Shown in pieces: positions 38,766 through 48,045 of a DNA stretch of 64,000 nt. The stretch spans positions 1-64,000 of the forward strand of contig JAFSXU010000043.1 in assembly GCA_017443895.1 (NCBI GenBank), read 5' to 3'. The number at the start of each line of letters is the position of its first letter. The first letter of the stretch is position 1. The notes under the pieces were generated by a model. It was not told where the DNA came from. It did no database searches and saw nothing but the letters and a program-made list of their open reading frames with translations. Made by a program: the position numbers and the translations under genes. Source of the DNA: Clostridia bacterium. Lineage in GTDB: Bacteria > Bacillota > Clostridia > UBA1381.

Positions 38766-38801
38766 AAATAGGTTGTTGCCTTGTAGCAACAACCTATTTT
38801 T
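38764..38801. terminator. Bidirectional intrinsic terminator
   Basis: A 16-base-pair stem AAAAATAGGTTGTTGC / its complement with T-runs on both strands, between convergent aroA and the glutamate synthase operon. Confidence 0.92.
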
Positions 38802-41260: not shown

Positions 41261-42766
41261 TTACTCCCCCGCATGGGAAATCCCCAGAATTTTAAGCTCA
41301 CGGTCATTTAAGCCGACACCTCTGAGCATCAGTCTGTTACCCTTTAGCGCTTCAATGGAATTGATACCCATACCGCCCATAAGCTCCTTGATCTCATGCC
41401 GCCATGCGTTCATAAGATTTACAAGGCGCTTACTTCCAATTTCGGGGTTAAGCCGTTTTACAAGGTCGGGACGCTGAGTTGCAATACCCCAGTTACATTT
41501 ACCGCTCTGGCAGGTACGGCACAGATGACACCCCATGGCAAGCACTGCCGCTGTAGCTATGTAGCACGCATCCGCACCAAGAGCAATAGCCTTTACAACA
41601 TCCGAGGCACTGCGTATGGAGCCGCCCACAACCAATGATACATTATTTCTTATACCCTCGTCTCTGAGCCTTTGATCAACCGAGGCAAGCGCAAGCTCTA
41701 TGGGTATTCCCACATTATCCCGTATACGAGTCGGTGCGGCACCTGTTCCGCCCCTGAATCCGTCAATGGCGATAATATCCGCTCCGCTTCTTGCAATTCC
41801 GCTTGCTATTGCGGCAATGTTATGCACCGCCGCCACCTTTACAATAACAGGCTTTTTATATTCTGTAGCCTCCTTTAGCGAAAATACAAGCTGTCTTAAA
41901 TCCTCGATTGAGTAAATATCGTGGTGCGGTGCAGGAGATATTGCATCGGAGCCTTCAGGAATCATTCTCGTTCTTGAAACATCGCCGACAATTTTTGTGC
42001 CCGGCAGATGTCCGCCAATTCCCGGCTTTGCGCCCTGCCCCATTTTTATTTCTATGCCTTTTCCTGCCTTTAAATAGTCCTCATGAACGCCAAACCTGCC
42101 CGATGCGACCTGCACAATCGTGTTATCGCCGTAGCAATAAAAATCCTCGTGCAAACCGCCCTCGCCTGTGTTATAGAATATTCCAAGCTCTTTAGCAGCC
42201 CGTGCTAAGCTCTCATGCGCATTATAGCTTATAGAGCCGTAGCTCATTGCCGAGAACATAACAGGCATGGAAAGCTCAAGCTGTGGCGATAAATTACACT
42301 TTAGCTTGCCGTCTTTGCCACGCTCGATTTTATCGGGCTTTTTACCTAAGAAAACCCTTGTTTCCATCGGCTCTCTCAACGGGTCAATGGGCGGATTTGT
42401 TACCTGGGAGGCATTTATTAAAATCCTGTCCCAATATACGGGAAGTGGGTTTGGATTTCCCATTGACGAGAGCAGTACACCGCCGCTGTTTGCCTGCTTA
42501 TATATCTCTTTTATGGTATTGTTTTGCCAGTTTGCGTTTTCGCGGAGCGTGCAGTCGCTCTTTACAATTTTCAGCGCCCGTGTGGGACACATGGAAACAC
42601 ACCTTTGGCAGTTTACGCATTTTGACTCATCGCTTTTTAAAATCTTCAAATCATCATCATAGCTGTGTACCTCGTTTGCACACTGCCTTTGACAAACACG
42701 ACAGCCGATACAACGGCTCTGATCTCTTATTACCTCAAATTCGGGGTATATAAATTCTATGCTCAT
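41261..42766 (-). CDS. gltB: Glutamate synthase FMN/Fe-S domain protein (archaeal-type large subunit)
   Basis: Central synthase unit of 501 residues. Two N-terminal [4Fe-4S] sets (CIGCRVCQRQC; CVNCQRCVSMCP) precede the FMN-binding TIM barrel (KMGQGAKPGIGGHLPGTKI, HHDIYSIEDLRQL, IDGFRGGTGAAPT). The [3Fe-4S] site follows with CHLCRTCQSGKC. It turns 2-oxoglutarate plus ammonia from the amidotransferase into glutamate. Overlaps the amidotransferase gene by 4 bases. Confidence 0.93.
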   Translation of the reverse strand: MSIEFIYPEFEVIRDQSRCIGCRVCQRQCANEVHSYDDDLKILKSDESKCVNCQRCVSMCPTRALKIVKSDCTLRENANWQNNTIKEIYKQANSGGVLLSSMGNPNPLPVYWDRILINASQVTNPPIDPLREPMETRVFLGKKPDKIERGKDGKLKCNLSPQLELSMPVMFSAMSYGSISYNAHESLARAAKELGIFYNTGEGGLHEDFYCYGDNTIVQVASGRFGVHEDYLKAGKGIEIKMGQGAKPGIGGHLPGTKIVGDVSRTRMIPEGSDAISPAPHHDIYSIEDLRQLVFSLKEATEYKKPVIVKVAAVHNIAAIASGIARSGADIIAIDGFRGGTGAAPTRIRDNVGIPIELALASVDQRLRDEGIRNNVSLVVGGSIRSASDVVKAIALGADACYIATAAVLAMGCHLCRTCQSGKCNWGIATQRPDLVKRLNPEIGSKRLVNLMNAWRHEIKELMGGMGINSIEALKGNRLMLRGVGLNDRELKILGISHAGE

Positions 42767-43860
42767 ATATTGACACCCTCTCTCACCTTAACGATTACCG
42801 GCTCACCGCCCGACGGCGCCCATATATTTTTAACATTATTGTCCATTACTCTTATCGCCGCCTCTTCACTTGCAATGTAAACCATATCGTCATGTTCACC
42901 GACAACCATACTGCGAAGCTTTAAGCGGTCATTTAAAGCCATAAGTCCGCCCCTGAATCCAAACACTATCGAGAACGGACCTGTAACAAGCAGGTTTGGG
43001 AACATTGTTCTTAAATATATGTGCTTTTCCTTATCCTCTGTATCGGTTTTATTTTCAATCGTACTCCAGAACGGCGCGGCTATAACACTTGACGCCTCGT
43101 TCATGGTAAGCCCCTGCCGTCTTATAAGGTAATCCATAATGTATGTAATAACCTCGGTATCTGTCTGCAAGGTGCATTTATAGCCAAACATCTCTATAAA
43201 CCTGCGGTTTGCATCGTATGATGAAATTTCACCGTTATGCACTATTGAATAATCAAGCAATGTAAACGGATGCGCACCGCCCCACCAGCCGGGGGTGTTT
43301 GTAGGGTATCTGCCATGCGCCGTCCATGAATACCCCTCGTATTCGTCAAGCCTGTAAAATCTGCCGACATCCTCGGGAAACCCCACAGCCTTAAATGTAC
43401 CCATATTTTTACCGCTTGAGAAAAGATATGCACCGCTTACCTCAATATTAACACGCATTACCATCCTTGCGACAAATTCGTTCTCGTCAACCTGCGCCGA
43501 TGAAACCATGGACTTTAGCGGTGCAACAAAATACCGCCATATAATAGGCTCATCGGTAATTTCGGGTATCTTCCTTGTCGGAATAATTTCTGACTTTACA
43601 ATCTCAAAGTACTCCTTTAAAAACACCTCGCAATCCTTTCTTGACGCGCGGTCCTTAAAGAAAAAATGGAATGCGTATAAATCCCTGTACTCGGGATATA
43701 TACCGTATGCCGCAAAGCCACCGCCCAAGCCGTTACTTCTATCGTGCATGGGCTTCATTGCATTCATTATTTTTTCACCGGTCATGGTTTTTCCGTCCCT
43801 TGATATAGCTGCCGCTATCGCACAGCCTGACGGTATTCTTACCTGTCCCTCTAACTGCAT
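42763..43860 (-). CDS. Glutamine amidotransferase subunit of the split glutamate synthase
   Basis: Class II (Ntn) glutamine amidotransferase, 365 residues, homologous to the first domain of GltB. It releases ammonia from glutamine. Conserved parts include RSNGLGGGFAAYGIYP, AHGRYPTNTPGWWGGAHPF, VHNGEISSYDANRRF and TDTEVITYIMD. The catalytic Cys is probably Cys13 in IPSGCAIAAA; a 12-residue propeptide would have to be removed. The start at 43860 follows AAAGGGTG; the longer frame to 43929 runs into the leader hairpin. Confidence 0.9.
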   Translation of the reverse strand: MQLEGQVRIPSGCAIAAAISRDGKTMTGEKIMNAMKPMHDRSNGLGGGFAAYGIYPEYRDLYAFHFFFKDRASRKDCEVFLKEYFEIVKSEIIPTRKIPEITDEPIIWRYFVAPLKSMVSSAQVDENEFVARMVMRVNIEVSGAYLFSSGKNMGTFKAVGFPEDVGRFYRLDEYEGYSWTAHGRYPTNTPGWWGGAHPFTLLDYSIVHNGEISSYDANRRFIEMFGYKCTLQTDTEVITYIMDYLIRRQGLTMNEASSVIAAPFWSTIENKTDTEDKEKHIYLRTMFPNLLVTGPFSIVFGFRGGLMALNDRLKLRSMVVGEHDDMVYIASEEAAIRVMDNNVKNIWAPSGGEPVIVKVREGVNI

Positions 43861-43881: not shown

Positions 43882-43933
43882 TAAAAAAAGATGCCCACTT
43901 ACCCGAAAGGCTTTCGGATAATTGAACATCTTT
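43882..43933 (-). promoter_or_regulatory. Leader hairpin with T-run before the glutamate synthase operon (attenuator-like)
   Basis: On the minus strand AAAGATG (43933-43927) pairs with CATCTTT (43893-43887), enclosing the inner hairpin CCGAAA/TTTCGG (43917-43903). Seven T follow (43889-43883). It lies between the promoter and the start codon, so it could end transcription early. Confidence 0.6.
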
Positions 43934-43947
43934 GCTCATTTTTGTTC

Positions 43948-43976
43948 ATTATACACCCACATAATTTATTTGTCAA
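43948..43976 (-). promoter_or_regulatory. Sigma-A promoter of the glutamate synthase operon
   Basis: Perfect TTGACA (43976-43971), 17 bases, perfect TATAAT (43953-43948) on the minus strand. It is back to back with the glnN promoter; the two -35 boxes are 23 bases apart. Confidence 0.88.
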
Positions 43977-43999
43977 CAAAATTTTTTTCAAAAAAGGGG

Positions 44000-44028
44000 T
44001 TGACAAATCAAAAAAACAGTTGTATACT
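44000..44028 (+). promoter_or_regulatory. Sigma-A promoter of glnN
   Basis: TTGACA (44000-44005), 17 bases, TATACT (44023-44028). The transcript would start near 44035, giving a leader of about 150 bases. Confidence 0.85.
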
Positions 44029-44037
44029 GCAAAATAT

Positions 44038-44080
44038 GAAGCAAGGATGTTTTAGAGTTTATCTCGAAAACCCTTGCTTC
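44038..44080 (+). promoter_or_regulatory. First leader hairpin of glnN
   Basis: GAAGCAAGG (44038-44046) pairs with CCTTGCTTC (44072-44080); inside, GTTTT/AAAAC and GAG/CTC extend the stem to a small TTTAT loop. It would form at the very 5' end of the RNA. Confidence 0.65.
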
Positions 44081-44123
44081 TTGATTTTTAGGAAAAATTT
44101 TTCTGTAAAATTTAATCACGGAC

Positions 44124-44169
44124 AAAGGCGTCTTTAAATGTTTTTCATTTAAGACGCTTTTTGTTTTTT
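44124..44169 (+). terminator. Intrinsic terminator in the glnN leader (attenuator)
   Basis: GCGTCTT-AAATG (44129-44140) pairs with CATTTAAGACGC (44146-44157) around a TTTTT loop. T-rich sequence follows (44158-44169) and the ribosome binding site AAGGAG comes directly after. A terminator here, downstream of a strong promoter, implies conditional read-through. Confidence 0.75.
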
Positions 44170-44186
44170 GAAGGAGATGTTTGTGT

Positions 44187-46274
44187 ATGAAAAATGTAGC
44201 AGATTATTTCGGGTGTATGGTTTTTGATGACAGGGTAATGAAATCAAGGCTCTCATCAAAGGTATATATGTCCCTAAAGCACACCATTGACGAGGGTGCA
44301 AGACTTGACGAAACGGTGGCAAACGCCGTTGCAAATGCTATGCGGGAGTGGGCAATAGAAAACGGCGCAACTCACTATACGCATTGGTTTCAGCCACTTA
44401 CAGGCATTACCGCTGAAAAGCACGACAGCTTTATATCACCCTCTCCCGACGGAAGAGTTATTATGGACTTTTCGGGAAAGGAGCTTATAAAGGGCGAGCC
44501 CGACGCGTCAAGCTTTCCATCAGGCGGTTTAAGAGCGACCTTTGAGGCAAGAGGCTATACCGCATGGGACCCGACCTCATACGCTTTTATAAAAGGGAAA
44601 ACACTTTGTATTCCTACCGCATTTTGCTCATACGGAGGCGAGGCGCTGGATAAAAAGACTCCGCTTTTAAGGTCTATGGAGGCGCTAAACAAGCAAGCCT
44701 TGCGTATTTTAAAGCTGTTCGGAACGGAGGCTAAATATGTGCATACCTCGGTAGGTCCCGAGCAGGAGTATTTCCTTGTTCCCAAGGAGCTTTTTGACAA
44801 AAGAAGTGATTTAATATTTACAGGGCGCACACTTTTTGGCAGAAAACCGCCAAAGGGACAGGAAATGGACGATCACTATTTCGGGGCTATAAAGCCAAGG
44901 GTTGAGGCATATATGACGGAGCTTAACGAGGAGCTTTGGAAATTAGGCATACTTGCAAAAACACAGCATAACGAGGTTGCGCCTGCACAGCATGAGCTTG
45001 CGCCGATTTATACAACAACAAATATCGCAACCGACCATAATCAGCTTACCATGGAAATAATGCAAAAGGTTGCGCAAAGACACGGACTTTGCTGTTTGCT
45101 ACACGAAAAGCCGTTTGCAAATGTCAACGGAAGCGGAAAGCACAATAACTGGTCCATGTCAACCGACAGTGGTACAAATCTATTATCGCCCGGCGAAACT
45201 CCGTATGAAAATGCACAGTTTTTATTATTCCTTTGTGCGGTTATAAAAGCGGTTGACGATTATCAGGATTTATTGCGTATCAGTGTTGCAACGGCAGGAA
45301 ATGACCACAGACTTGGTGCAAATGAGGCTCCGCCTGCGGTTGTGTCCATTTTCTTGGGCGATGAATTAAACGCAGTTTTAGAGGCTATAGAAAATGATAC
45401 TCCGTATAAAAACGCAAAGAAAACAAAAATGCAATTAGGCGTTGATGTTTTGCCTAAGTTTAACCGTGATACCACGGACCGTAACAGGACATCGCCGTTT
45501 GCATTTACAGGTAACAAGTTTGAGTTCAGAATGCTTGGCTCGTCAAACTCTATTGCGTGTGCAAATATTATGCTAAACAGCGCCGTGGCCCAGAGTCTTA
45601 AAATATATGCAGACAGACTTGAAACGGCGTCCGATTTTAACAGCGCACTCCATAAAATGATAAGAAAAACCATAAAGGATCACAAGCGCATTATATTTAA
45701 CGGAAACGGCTATGATGATAAGTGGATAGAGGAAGCAACAAAGGTAAGAGGACTTATGAACCTCAGGACAACACCCGATGCAATTCCGCACTTGCTTGAT
45801 GAGAAGAATGTAAAAATGCTCACAGACCACAAGGTATTCTCAGAGGCAGAGCTTAAATCACGCTGTGAAATAACTCTTGAAAATTACTGCAAGAGCGTTA
45901 TTATCGAGGCAAATACCATGCTTGAAATGTCAAGAAAGGAAATTCTGCCTGCGGTACTTGAATATGAAGCGTTTATTGTATCGGCAGCAAACAACAAAAA
46001 AGCACTCGGTATTGACTGTGATTATGAAACAAAAACCGCAAATGAGCTATCACGCTTGGTAAACAGTATTGACAAGAGTGCCAACGAGCTTGATAATGCA
46101 ATTCAAAATGTATCTGTCGCATCGGATATTATAGACGAGGGGTATATGATAAGAGATACTCTTCTGCCAAAAATGAGCGATTTGCGAGAGCCATGCGATG
46201 AGGCGGAAATGATAACGGCTAAGAAGTTCTGGCCGTTCCCGACATACGGCGATTTGCTTTTCGGCGTAAGATAA
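44187..46274 (+). CDS. glnN: Glutamine synthetase type III
   Basis: Makes glutamine from glutamate, ammonia and ATP. Its length of about 695 residues is typical of GSIII. Hallmarks: [69 protein letters not shown] and [16 protein letters not shown]. ATGs occur at 44181 and, in frame, 44187; GAAGGAGATG at 44169-44178 gives a better distance to the second. It is co-oriented with the Amt gene 17 bases downstream and divergent from glutamate synthase. Confidence 0.95.
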
Positions 46275-46290
46275 AAATTATGGAAAGAAG

Positions 46291-48045
46291 ATGATGGAAA
46301 TGACAATAGATATGGTAAAAGAGGTAGTATCGGGCGAAGTGTTTAGCGTATGGTTTCTAATCGGTGCGGCACTTGTGTTCTGGATGCAGGCAGGCTTTGC
46401 AATGGTTGAGGCAGGCTTTACAAGGGCAAAAAATACGGGAAATATCATAATGAAAAACCTTATGGATTTCTGTATCGGAACGGTAATGTTTATCATCATA
46501 GGCTTTGGACTGCTTTTGGGCGAGGATTTGGCAGGATTTATAGGAAAACCGGGCTTTGACCTGTTTACTACATACAAGAGCTTTGATTTTTCAAGCTTTG
46601 TATTTAATCTTGTGTTCTGCGCAACAACGGCAACGATTGTATCGGGCGCAATGGCGGAGCGTACAAAATTCCTCTCCTATTGCATATATTCAGCTATTAT
46701 ATCCGCTCTTATCTATCCCATTGAAGCGCACTGGATATGGGGCGGAGGCTGGCTGGCTCAAACAGGCTTTCACGATTTTGCAGGCTCATGCGCAATTCAT
46801 ATGGTGGGCGGAATTTCAGCGCTTATCGGTGCAAAAATTTTAGGACCCCGTATAGGCAAATTCAAGCGTGATGCAAGCGGTAAGGTTATAAAAGTAAATG
46901 CCTTTCCCGGACATAATATTGCACTTGGCGCATTGGGTGTATTTATCCTGTGGCTTGGGTGGTACGGATTTAACGGCGCTGCGGCTACATCTGTAGCACA
47001 GCTTGGCTCAATATTTTTAACAACCACCGTATCTCCTGCCATTGCAACGGTCGTGTGCATGGTATTTACATGGGTAAAATACGGAAAAAGTGATGTTTCA
47101 ATGTGCTTAAACGCCTCCCTTGCAGGACTTGTTGCAATAACCGCAGGCTGTGATGTAACCGACGCATTCGGGGCAATAGTTATCGGTGCGGTTTCGGGAT
47201 TACTCGTGGTGTTTGGAGTATGGCTCTTAGACTACAAACTGCATATTGACGATCCTGTGGGTGCGGTTGCCGTTCACTGCCTTAACGGTATATGGGGTAC
47301 ATTGGCGGTAGGTCTTTTTGCAACAAGCTCCGCACCCGAATATTCAATTATGAATGTATCGGGGAAAACCCTTACGGGACTTTTTTACGGCGGTGGCTTT
47401 GAGCTTATGAAAATACAGCTTACAGGACTTTTTGCAGTGGCGCTATGGACAGCGGTTACCATAACAGTTGCATTTTTAATCATAAAAGCAACCGTTGGTC
47501 TGAGAGCGTCAAGGGAGGACGAAATTATAGGGCTTGATGCGACAGAACACGGTTTGCCGTCAGCATATGCAGGCTTTGCAATGCACTCGGATTATACCGA
47601 TACCGCGCCGACAGTTGTATCGGGAGATGTGCCTGTTGCCGAGGCGATACCTGTTAAGAAAATTCCGTCATTTGACGATGGAACAGCGCCAAAGCTTACA
47701 AAGATAGAAATGGTTATAAAGGAATCGAAATTTGAGCCTTTAAAGAATGCAATGATGAATATTGGTATAACAGGTATGACAGTTTCGCATGTATTGGGCT
47801 GTGGCGTACAGCTGGGCAGACCCGAATTTTACAGAGGTGTTCAGGTTGAGGCAAACCTTTTGCCTAAGGTTCAGGTTGATATAGTTGTAAGCGCAGTTCC
47901 TGTAGGTCTTGTAATAGAAACAGCAAAAAAAGTCCTCTATACGGGACATATCGGGGACGGTAAAATATTTGTCTATGATGTGGAAAATGTTATAAAGGTA
48001 CGCACAGGTGAGGAAGGCTATGACGCCCTGCAAGATGTTGAATAA
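46291..48045 (+). CDS. amt: Ammonium transporter fused to a PII signalling domain
   Basis: Residues 1 to about 435 form an 11-helix Amt channel: WMQAGFAMVEAGFTRAKNTG, HWIWGGGWLAQTGFHDFAGS and VGAVAVHCLNGIWGTLAVGL with the channel His pair. A linker leads to a C-terminal GlnB/GlnK (PII) domain (about 470-584), with KIEMVIKESKFEPLKNAMMN, the T-loop region GCGVQLGRPEFYRGVQVEAN, LLPKVQVDIVV and TGHIGDGKIFVYDVENVIKV. The PII part normally blocks the channel when nitrogen is plentiful; here the regulator is tethered. The T-loop lacks the Tyr51 context of enteric PII, though a Tyr is nearby. RBS GGAAAGAAG. Confidence 0.95.
   Translation: MMEMTIDMVKEVVSGEVFSVWFLIGAALVFWMQAGFAMVEAGFTRAKNTGNIIMKNLMDFCIGTVMFIIIGFGLLLGEDLAGFIGKPGFDLFTTYKSFDFSSFVFNLVFCATTATIVSGAMAERTKFLSYCIYSAIISALIYPIEAHWIWGGGWLAQTGFHDFAGSCAIHMVGGISALIGAKILGPRIGKFKRDASGKVIKVNAFPGHNIALGALGVFILWLGWYGFNGAAATSVAQLGSIFLTTTVSPAIATVVCMVFTWVKYGKSDVSMCLNASLAGLVAITAGCDVTDAFGAIVIGAVSGLLVVFGVWLLDYKLHIDDPVGAVAVHCLNGIWGTLAVGLFATSSAPEYSIMNVSGKTLTGLFYGGGFELMKIQLTGLFAVALWTAVTITVAFLIIKATVGLRASREDEIIGLDATEHGLPSAYAGFAMHSDYTDTAPTVVSGDVPVAEAIPVKKIPSFDDGTAPKLTKIEMVIKESKFEPLKNAMMNIGITGMTVSHVLGCGVQLGRPEFYRGVQVEANLLPKVQVDIVVSAVPVGLVIETAKKVLYTGHIGDGKIFVYDVENVIKVRTGEEGYDALQDVE

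Follow-up and report, generated by a model that had tools for sequence, protein, structure and literature searches.

The divergent leaders of gltB and of the type III glutamine synthetase (GSIII) gene from this Clostridia bacterium are very probably attenuators read by the sole, NitR-like ANTAR protein of the genome, one hexaloop per terminator being enough. The sequence features behind this reading are the hexaloop-terminator units themselves, the promoter geometry, the covariation of the stems, the gene context and the co-occurrence of the units with ANTAR genes. The stretch in question (43882–44169) is part of the window, by which we mean the whole stretch of DNA analysed, of 64,000 nt.

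Both genes are transcribed divergently from one shared interval (Table 1). gltB is the first gene of an apparent operon extending to position 38800, and the gene for an ammonium transporter fused to PII, situated 16 nt past GSIII, presumably belongs to the GSIII operon. The start of gltB is at 43860, after a ribosome binding site (GAAAGGG, 43876–43870), and the mechanical ORF start at 43929 is wrong; GSIII starts at the ATG at 44187, with its ribosome binding site at 44171–44176. The initial annotation described near-perfect divergent sigma-A promoters, and this holds, with 23 bases (43977–43999) separating the two −35 boxes.

Table 1. Genes, promoters, hexaloop hairpins and terminators of the gltB-GSIII region (window coordinates)
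Feature	Coordinates	Strand	Details
gltB, glutaminase (GATase_2) subunit of split, archaeal-type glutamate synthase	42763..43860	-	First gene of an apparent operon
gltB terminator	43883..43933	-	AAAGAUG...CAUCUUU, inner hairpin, T-run 43889-43883; 5′ arm is the hexaloop itself
gltB hairpin	43923..43938	-	UGAGC[AAAGAU]GUUCA, loop 43933-43928; model R2 E 0.0004 in window (sequence in R2 training set)
gltB promoter	43948..43976	-	TTGACA (43976-43971), 17 nt, TATAAT (43953-43948); sigma-A consensus 12/12
GSIII promoter	44000..44028	+	TTGACA (44000-44005), 17 nt, TATACT (44023-44028); sigma-A consensus 11/12
GSIII unit 1 hairpin	44038..44053	+	GAAGC[AAGGAU]GUUUU; model E 0.010 (training-set member)
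GSIII terminator 1	44038..44089	+	GAAGCAAGG...CCUUGCUUC then UUGAUUUUU; shares bases with unit 1 hairpin
GSIII unit 2 hairpin	44120..44133	+	GGAC[AAAGGC]GUCU; model E 9.8e-7 (training-set member)
GSIII terminator 2	44124..44169	+	GCGUCUUUAAAUG/CAUUUAAGACGC, T-run 44158-44169; ends immediately 5′ of the ribosome binding site
Type III glutamine synthetase, GSIII (glnN)	44187..46274	+	Pfam GSIII_N 5.8e-81
Ammonium transporter with PII (GlnK) domain fused at C-terminus	46291..48045	+	Pfam Ammonium_transp, P-II

As had also been proposed, each leader contains a stem followed by a T-run before the ribosome binding site, although there are two such elements, not one, in the GSIII leader. The gltB leader, with one element, folds at −27.7 kcal/mol (z −5.8) and the GSIII leader at −47.1 kcal/mol (z −5.4), and in neither case was any of 200 shuffles as good; a simple terminator scan missed these terminators. 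Nowhere in the window did an Rfam family score at or above its gathering threshold, including the glutamine riboswitches (RF01739, RF01704) and the T-box, in agreement with the initial annotation, and the sub-threshold matches in the interval (miRNA, snoRNA, P11 and PyrR) were dropped as implausible. A small-molecule sensor, such as a glutamine or ammonium riboswitch, running the terminators would suit nitrogen genes with terminator-controlled leaders, but is most improbable given the lack of an Rfam match and the link to ANTAR genes described below. Additionally, what is conserved amounts to an 18-nt hairpin, in which little is kept beyond the loop and the closing pairs and which we infer to be too small for known aptamers.

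Every terminator of the two leaders overlaps one hairpin with a hexaloop of the ANTAR type. The signature of ANTAR targets is a short hairpin with a six-base loop whose first base is A and whose fourth is G (PMC3369931, PMC8934654), and all five units of the genome have an A1/G4 hexaloop on a hairpin of at least 3 bp. As is expected of an ANTAR target, the 3′ part of the hairpin is common with the 5′ arm of the intrinsic terminator. The initial annotation was right that there is no ANTAR double hexaloop, but the single hexaloops at every terminator had gone unseen. Units with a terminator were found in this genome only before gltB, before GSIII (two), before glnA-nitR (AAAAC[AAAGGC]GUUUU) and before a second GSIII gene (L145, G000:C69:42142-42200), which has its own single unit with a weaker hairpin, AAGAU[AAAGGC]GUUUU, closed by a U-G pair. 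Two covariance models were used, R1 for the terminator structure and R2 for the hairpin only. R1 had been trained on an alignment that included three of these four leaders; its match at the second GSIII gene is independent of that alignment, and the model missed the gltB unit of this genome. Since the terminator is near-palindromic, R1 often matched the wrong strand, and orientation was set by the hexaloop and the downstream gene. R2 recovered the gltB and glnA units and the second GSIII unit; its remaining top matches are in coding sequence or have no terminator. A search of the genome with a 12-base pattern was too loose (75 matches per strand, versus 24–38 for the reversed pattern).

The terminators, at −19 to −25 kcal/mol, are far more stable than the isolated hexaloop hairpins (−3.2 to +1.4 kcal/mol). 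This points to termination as the default state and to a protein that must favour the hairpin, so that NitR would be an activator.

Transcription usually starts about 7 nt past the −10 box. In leaders in which a promoter was found, the loop starts 13–17 nt past this box in 45 of 49 cases for GSIII and in 29 of 31 for gltB, and the hairpin should therefore come first in the RNA, where nothing can precede it. In the window, the gltB hairpin begins about 3 nt from the predicted 5′ end of the RNA and the hairpin of GSIII unit 1 sits at the predicted 5′ end. Attenuation by a leader peptide was dropped, since a hairpin about 3 nt from the 5′ end leaves no room for a ribosome binding site; further, the gltB loop of this genome contains an AUG that is not conserved.

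Of 76 GSIII leaders from other genomes, 70 contained one or more A1/G4 hexaloops with a stem of 5 bp or more, as compared to 0.028 per shuffled leader. An unselected scan of the same 76 leaders gave 103 matches with A and G at loop positions 1 and 4, versus at most eight for any other pair of bases. gltB is divergent from GSIII in 43 genomes, the window included; 39 of these 43 gltB leaders contain a hexaloop and 37 of the divergent pairs have one in both leaders. The consensus stems differ, yet both pair (gltB AUGAGC/GUUCAU, GSIII AAAGGC/GUCUUU). In the stem alignment 95.6% of cells were paired, versus 81% when shuffled and at most 56% when slid, with 82 double-change cells versus 27; since the hexaloop detector selected the members of alignments A1 and A3, their percentage paired is biased, whereas the shuffle comparison over whole GSIII leaders is unbiased. 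The terminator overlapping the hexaloop likewise covaries. The strict cut-off of 5 bp under-counted units in other families, which was fixed by accepting 4 bp together with a terminator. Single-hexaloop GSIII leaders with other stems (ACAGC/GCUGU, CGGC/GCCG) also occur in other clostridial families (L249, L252, L259, L248, L253, L251).

The same 5′ sequence might instead be conserved as the lower part of a long terminator, in which AAAGGCAAAGGC pairs with GCCUUUGCCUUU before the T-run, the hexaloop being a by-product that no protein reads. In many GSIII units, such as L043, L053 and L063, the terminator can indeed be lengthened downwards to take in the 5′ arm. Nevertheless, in gltB leaders the partner of AUGA in the outer stem is UCAU, not the U-rich tail, and compensatory changes occur. 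None of the 96 aligned hairpins, which were chosen by that criterion, departs from A1 and G4, and the unselected scan showed no enrichment of any other loop. A long terminator would, besides, leave the co-occurrence with ANTAR genes unexplained, and we consider it very unlikely. The initial annotation had ascribed control to read-through, for which the preservation across Clostridia of a unit in which hairpin and terminator are mutually exclusive provides comparative support.

The genes that follow R1 matches elsewhere encode glutamine-making or glutamine-using steps or ammonium uptake, or lie in operons of these. Specifically, 55 of the 58 retrieved model matches precede GSIII, gltB, Amt-PII, GSI or purC-purF, and the other three are situated before asnB, before purF and at a contig end. 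Units in other Clostridia (L197, L199, L201) were seen before purC-purF, asnB and purF. The pur and asnB units suggest a glutamine regulon wider than GS and GOGAT.

The search for an ANTAR regulator proposed in the initial annotation identified exactly one protein with an ANTAR domain (PF03861; 53.4 bits in one search and 51.4 bits in another, cut-off 27.3), which is NitR-like and encoded just downstream of glnA. Among 393 class-level genomes, an ANTAR gene was found in 84 of the 90 with units and in 131 of the 303 without (p=2e-19, inflated by the relatedness of the genomes, which the test ignores). When GSIII leaders were sampled regardless of the unit, it was present in 17 of 22 ANTAR-positive and in one of 11 ANTAR-negative genomes (p=4.5e-4, likewise ignoring kinship); one of the ANTAR-positive cases (L257) looks spurious, and the lone ANTAR-negative carrier (G101) belongs to the same genus as an ANTAR-positive genome that carries the same hairpin. 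Genome G105 (L206) has six strong model matches (best E 3.8e-8) and no detectable ANTAR protein; the assembly is a draft (6% contamination), and a lost gene, an assembly gap or another reader may account for this. Five further ANTAR-negative genomes have weak model matches. Together with the A1/G4 hexaloops and the ANTAR gene beside glnA, this co-occurrence favours the diverged ANTAR target that the initial annotation had offered as one option over its other option, a new sensor.

The ANTAR targets described so far require a pair of hexaloops (PMC3369931, PMC8934654), joined by linkers of 5–12 nt in eut and of 2–25 nt in actinobacteria. A second hexaloop no more than 36 nt away was about as frequent as expected by chance (six and two of 103 units versus 5.0 and 3.9 in shuffled sequence). 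The 116 leaders contained eight pairs, of which three or more overlap promoter boxes. Exactly one hexaloop occurs in 29 of 39 gltB leaders and in 35 GSIII leaders, and GSIII leaders often have two or three units. Except for one overlapping pair, tandem hexaloops are at least 32 nt apart, most with their own terminator. Near classical ANTAR genes of other Clostridia, the hexaloop detector did find convincing pairs (L214, L222, L224, L225) beside terminators, with linkers of 2–19 nt, although with 16 pairs in total versus 9 in shuffled sequence it is not a clean screen alone.

The frequency of two or three units in GSIII leaders might be taken to mean that a canonical NitR needs two hexaloops, the tandem units forming a dual target and the single-unit leaders being constitutively attenuated or served by another factor. 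Yet a lengthened linker abolishes antitermination by EutV (PMC3369931, PMC8934654), whereas the tandem linkers are as long as stated above; the terminator of the first unit is completed before the second hexaloop exists; and the single hexaloop prevails in gltB leaders and in those 35 GSIII leaders. This makes a requirement for two hexaloops very unlikely. On comparative evidence, the gltB and GSIII units are best explained as a variant of the ANTAR antiterminator that has a single hexaloop and lies close to the promoter.

nitR adjoins the 3′ end of glnA, and thus the glnA leader, with its hexaloop unit, would also control the regulator. Exactly one ANTAR protein was found in 58 of 70 genomes of the family. 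The predicted structure of NitR (pLDDT 90.6) has a receiver-like domain joined to the ANTAR domain, and its best solved fold relatives include Rv1626, the EutV:RNA complex and AmiR (matched structures including 6ww6, 1s8n and 1qo0). In the ANTAR helix the SMD motif is preserved, including the methionine which in EutV serves as the plug of the hexaloop, and a conserved His occupies the position of EutV Tyr164, the aromatic residue stacking on G4. Pfam gave no receiver match in NitR. The phospho-acceptor Asp is absent at the end of strand β3, a position placed by eye against the predicted strands, where 15 of 19 relatives have G (IIMGYKL) and four have N. Control by a histidine kinase is therefore unlikely, and a protein partner, for instance GS or PII, more likely. 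Bacillus TnrA is controlled by GS; naming GS or PII as the partner of NitR is a guess from this analogy and from the gene neighbourhood. A second, diverged NitR-like clade (L113, L127, L130, L133), also encoded after glnA, has Asn at the phospho-acceptor position.

We propose that RNA polymerase initiates at the strong sigma-A promoters and that the first 20 nt or so would either form the short A1/G4 hexaloop hairpin or be absorbed into the far more stable terminator, which would prevail by default. When nitrogen is short, NitR would bind and hold the hexaloop hairpin, thus blocking the terminator and allowing synthesis of GOGAT, of GSIII with Amt-PII and of glnA-nitR. One hexaloop per terminator would suffice, GSIII having two units in series, and the signal would probably reach NitR through a protein partner such as GS or PII rather than a histidine kinase. 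The binding of NitR, the read-through, the direction of control and the signal are inferred. A broader version, for which we see somewhat less than an even chance, is that a single 5′-terminal hexaloop is a complete ANTAR antiterminator lacking a recruitment hairpin, that it serves a Clostridia-wide glutamine regulon (GS, GOGAT, Amt-PII, asnB and pur) and that what switches NitR is GS or PII touching its pseudo-receiver rather than phosphorylation.

The 2022 structural work on EutV reduced the minimal binding site to one hexaloop; its authors left the role of single hexaloops to be determined and suggested that they serve where the transcribing polymerase sets no time limit (PMC8934654). The units described here appear to be attenuators with one hexaloop each, in dozens of genomes, and would offer natural templates for this question. 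Covariance searches built on two hairpins will miss them, so that the annotation of nitrogen regulons in Clostridia of the gut and rumen is probably incomplete. Furthermore, how Clostridia sense nitrogen is an old question, which a NitR with a pseudo-receiver encoded beside glnA makes testable. We found no description of a single 5′-terminal hexaloop unit in the open-access literature searched; Stutz et al. (2007), which lies outside it, may contain one.

ANTAR control of nitrogen genes is already known, as is, in outline, NitR control of clostridial GS and GOGAT. The units resemble the dual-hexaloop RNAs (eut of E. faecalis with EutV, nasF with NasR, amiE with AmiR) in the A1/G4 hexaloop on a short stem whose 3′ arm is shared with the terminator, in the association with nitrogen genes and in the presence of an ANTAR protein in the genome. 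They differ in having one hexaloop per terminator, no recruitment hairpin P1, a position at the 5′ end of the RNA, 13–17 nt past the −10 box, and frequent repetition of the whole hexaloop-terminator unit. Glutamate synthase leaders of Desulfotomaculum have been listed as dual-hexaloop targets (PMC3369931). The Sac/Bgl RAT antiterminators (LicT, SacY) likewise rely on one protein-stabilised hairpin overlapping one terminator, but with an unrelated protein and RNA motif, the RAT being 29–30 nt long (PMC3369931). In C. saccharobutylicum, NitR is described in a review as inducing GS/GOGAT genes by antitermination on nitrogen limitation (PMC6316151), and C. acetobutylicum nitR and C. thermocellum Clo1313_2030 are cited as ANTAR genes linked to GS/GOGAT with proposed antitermination (PMC4676874). 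Our units share with the C. saccharobutylicum system, as outlined from Stutz et al. (2007), an ANTAR protein tied to GS/GOGAT genes and proposed antitermination, and to this outline we add the single-hexaloop architecture and its spread.
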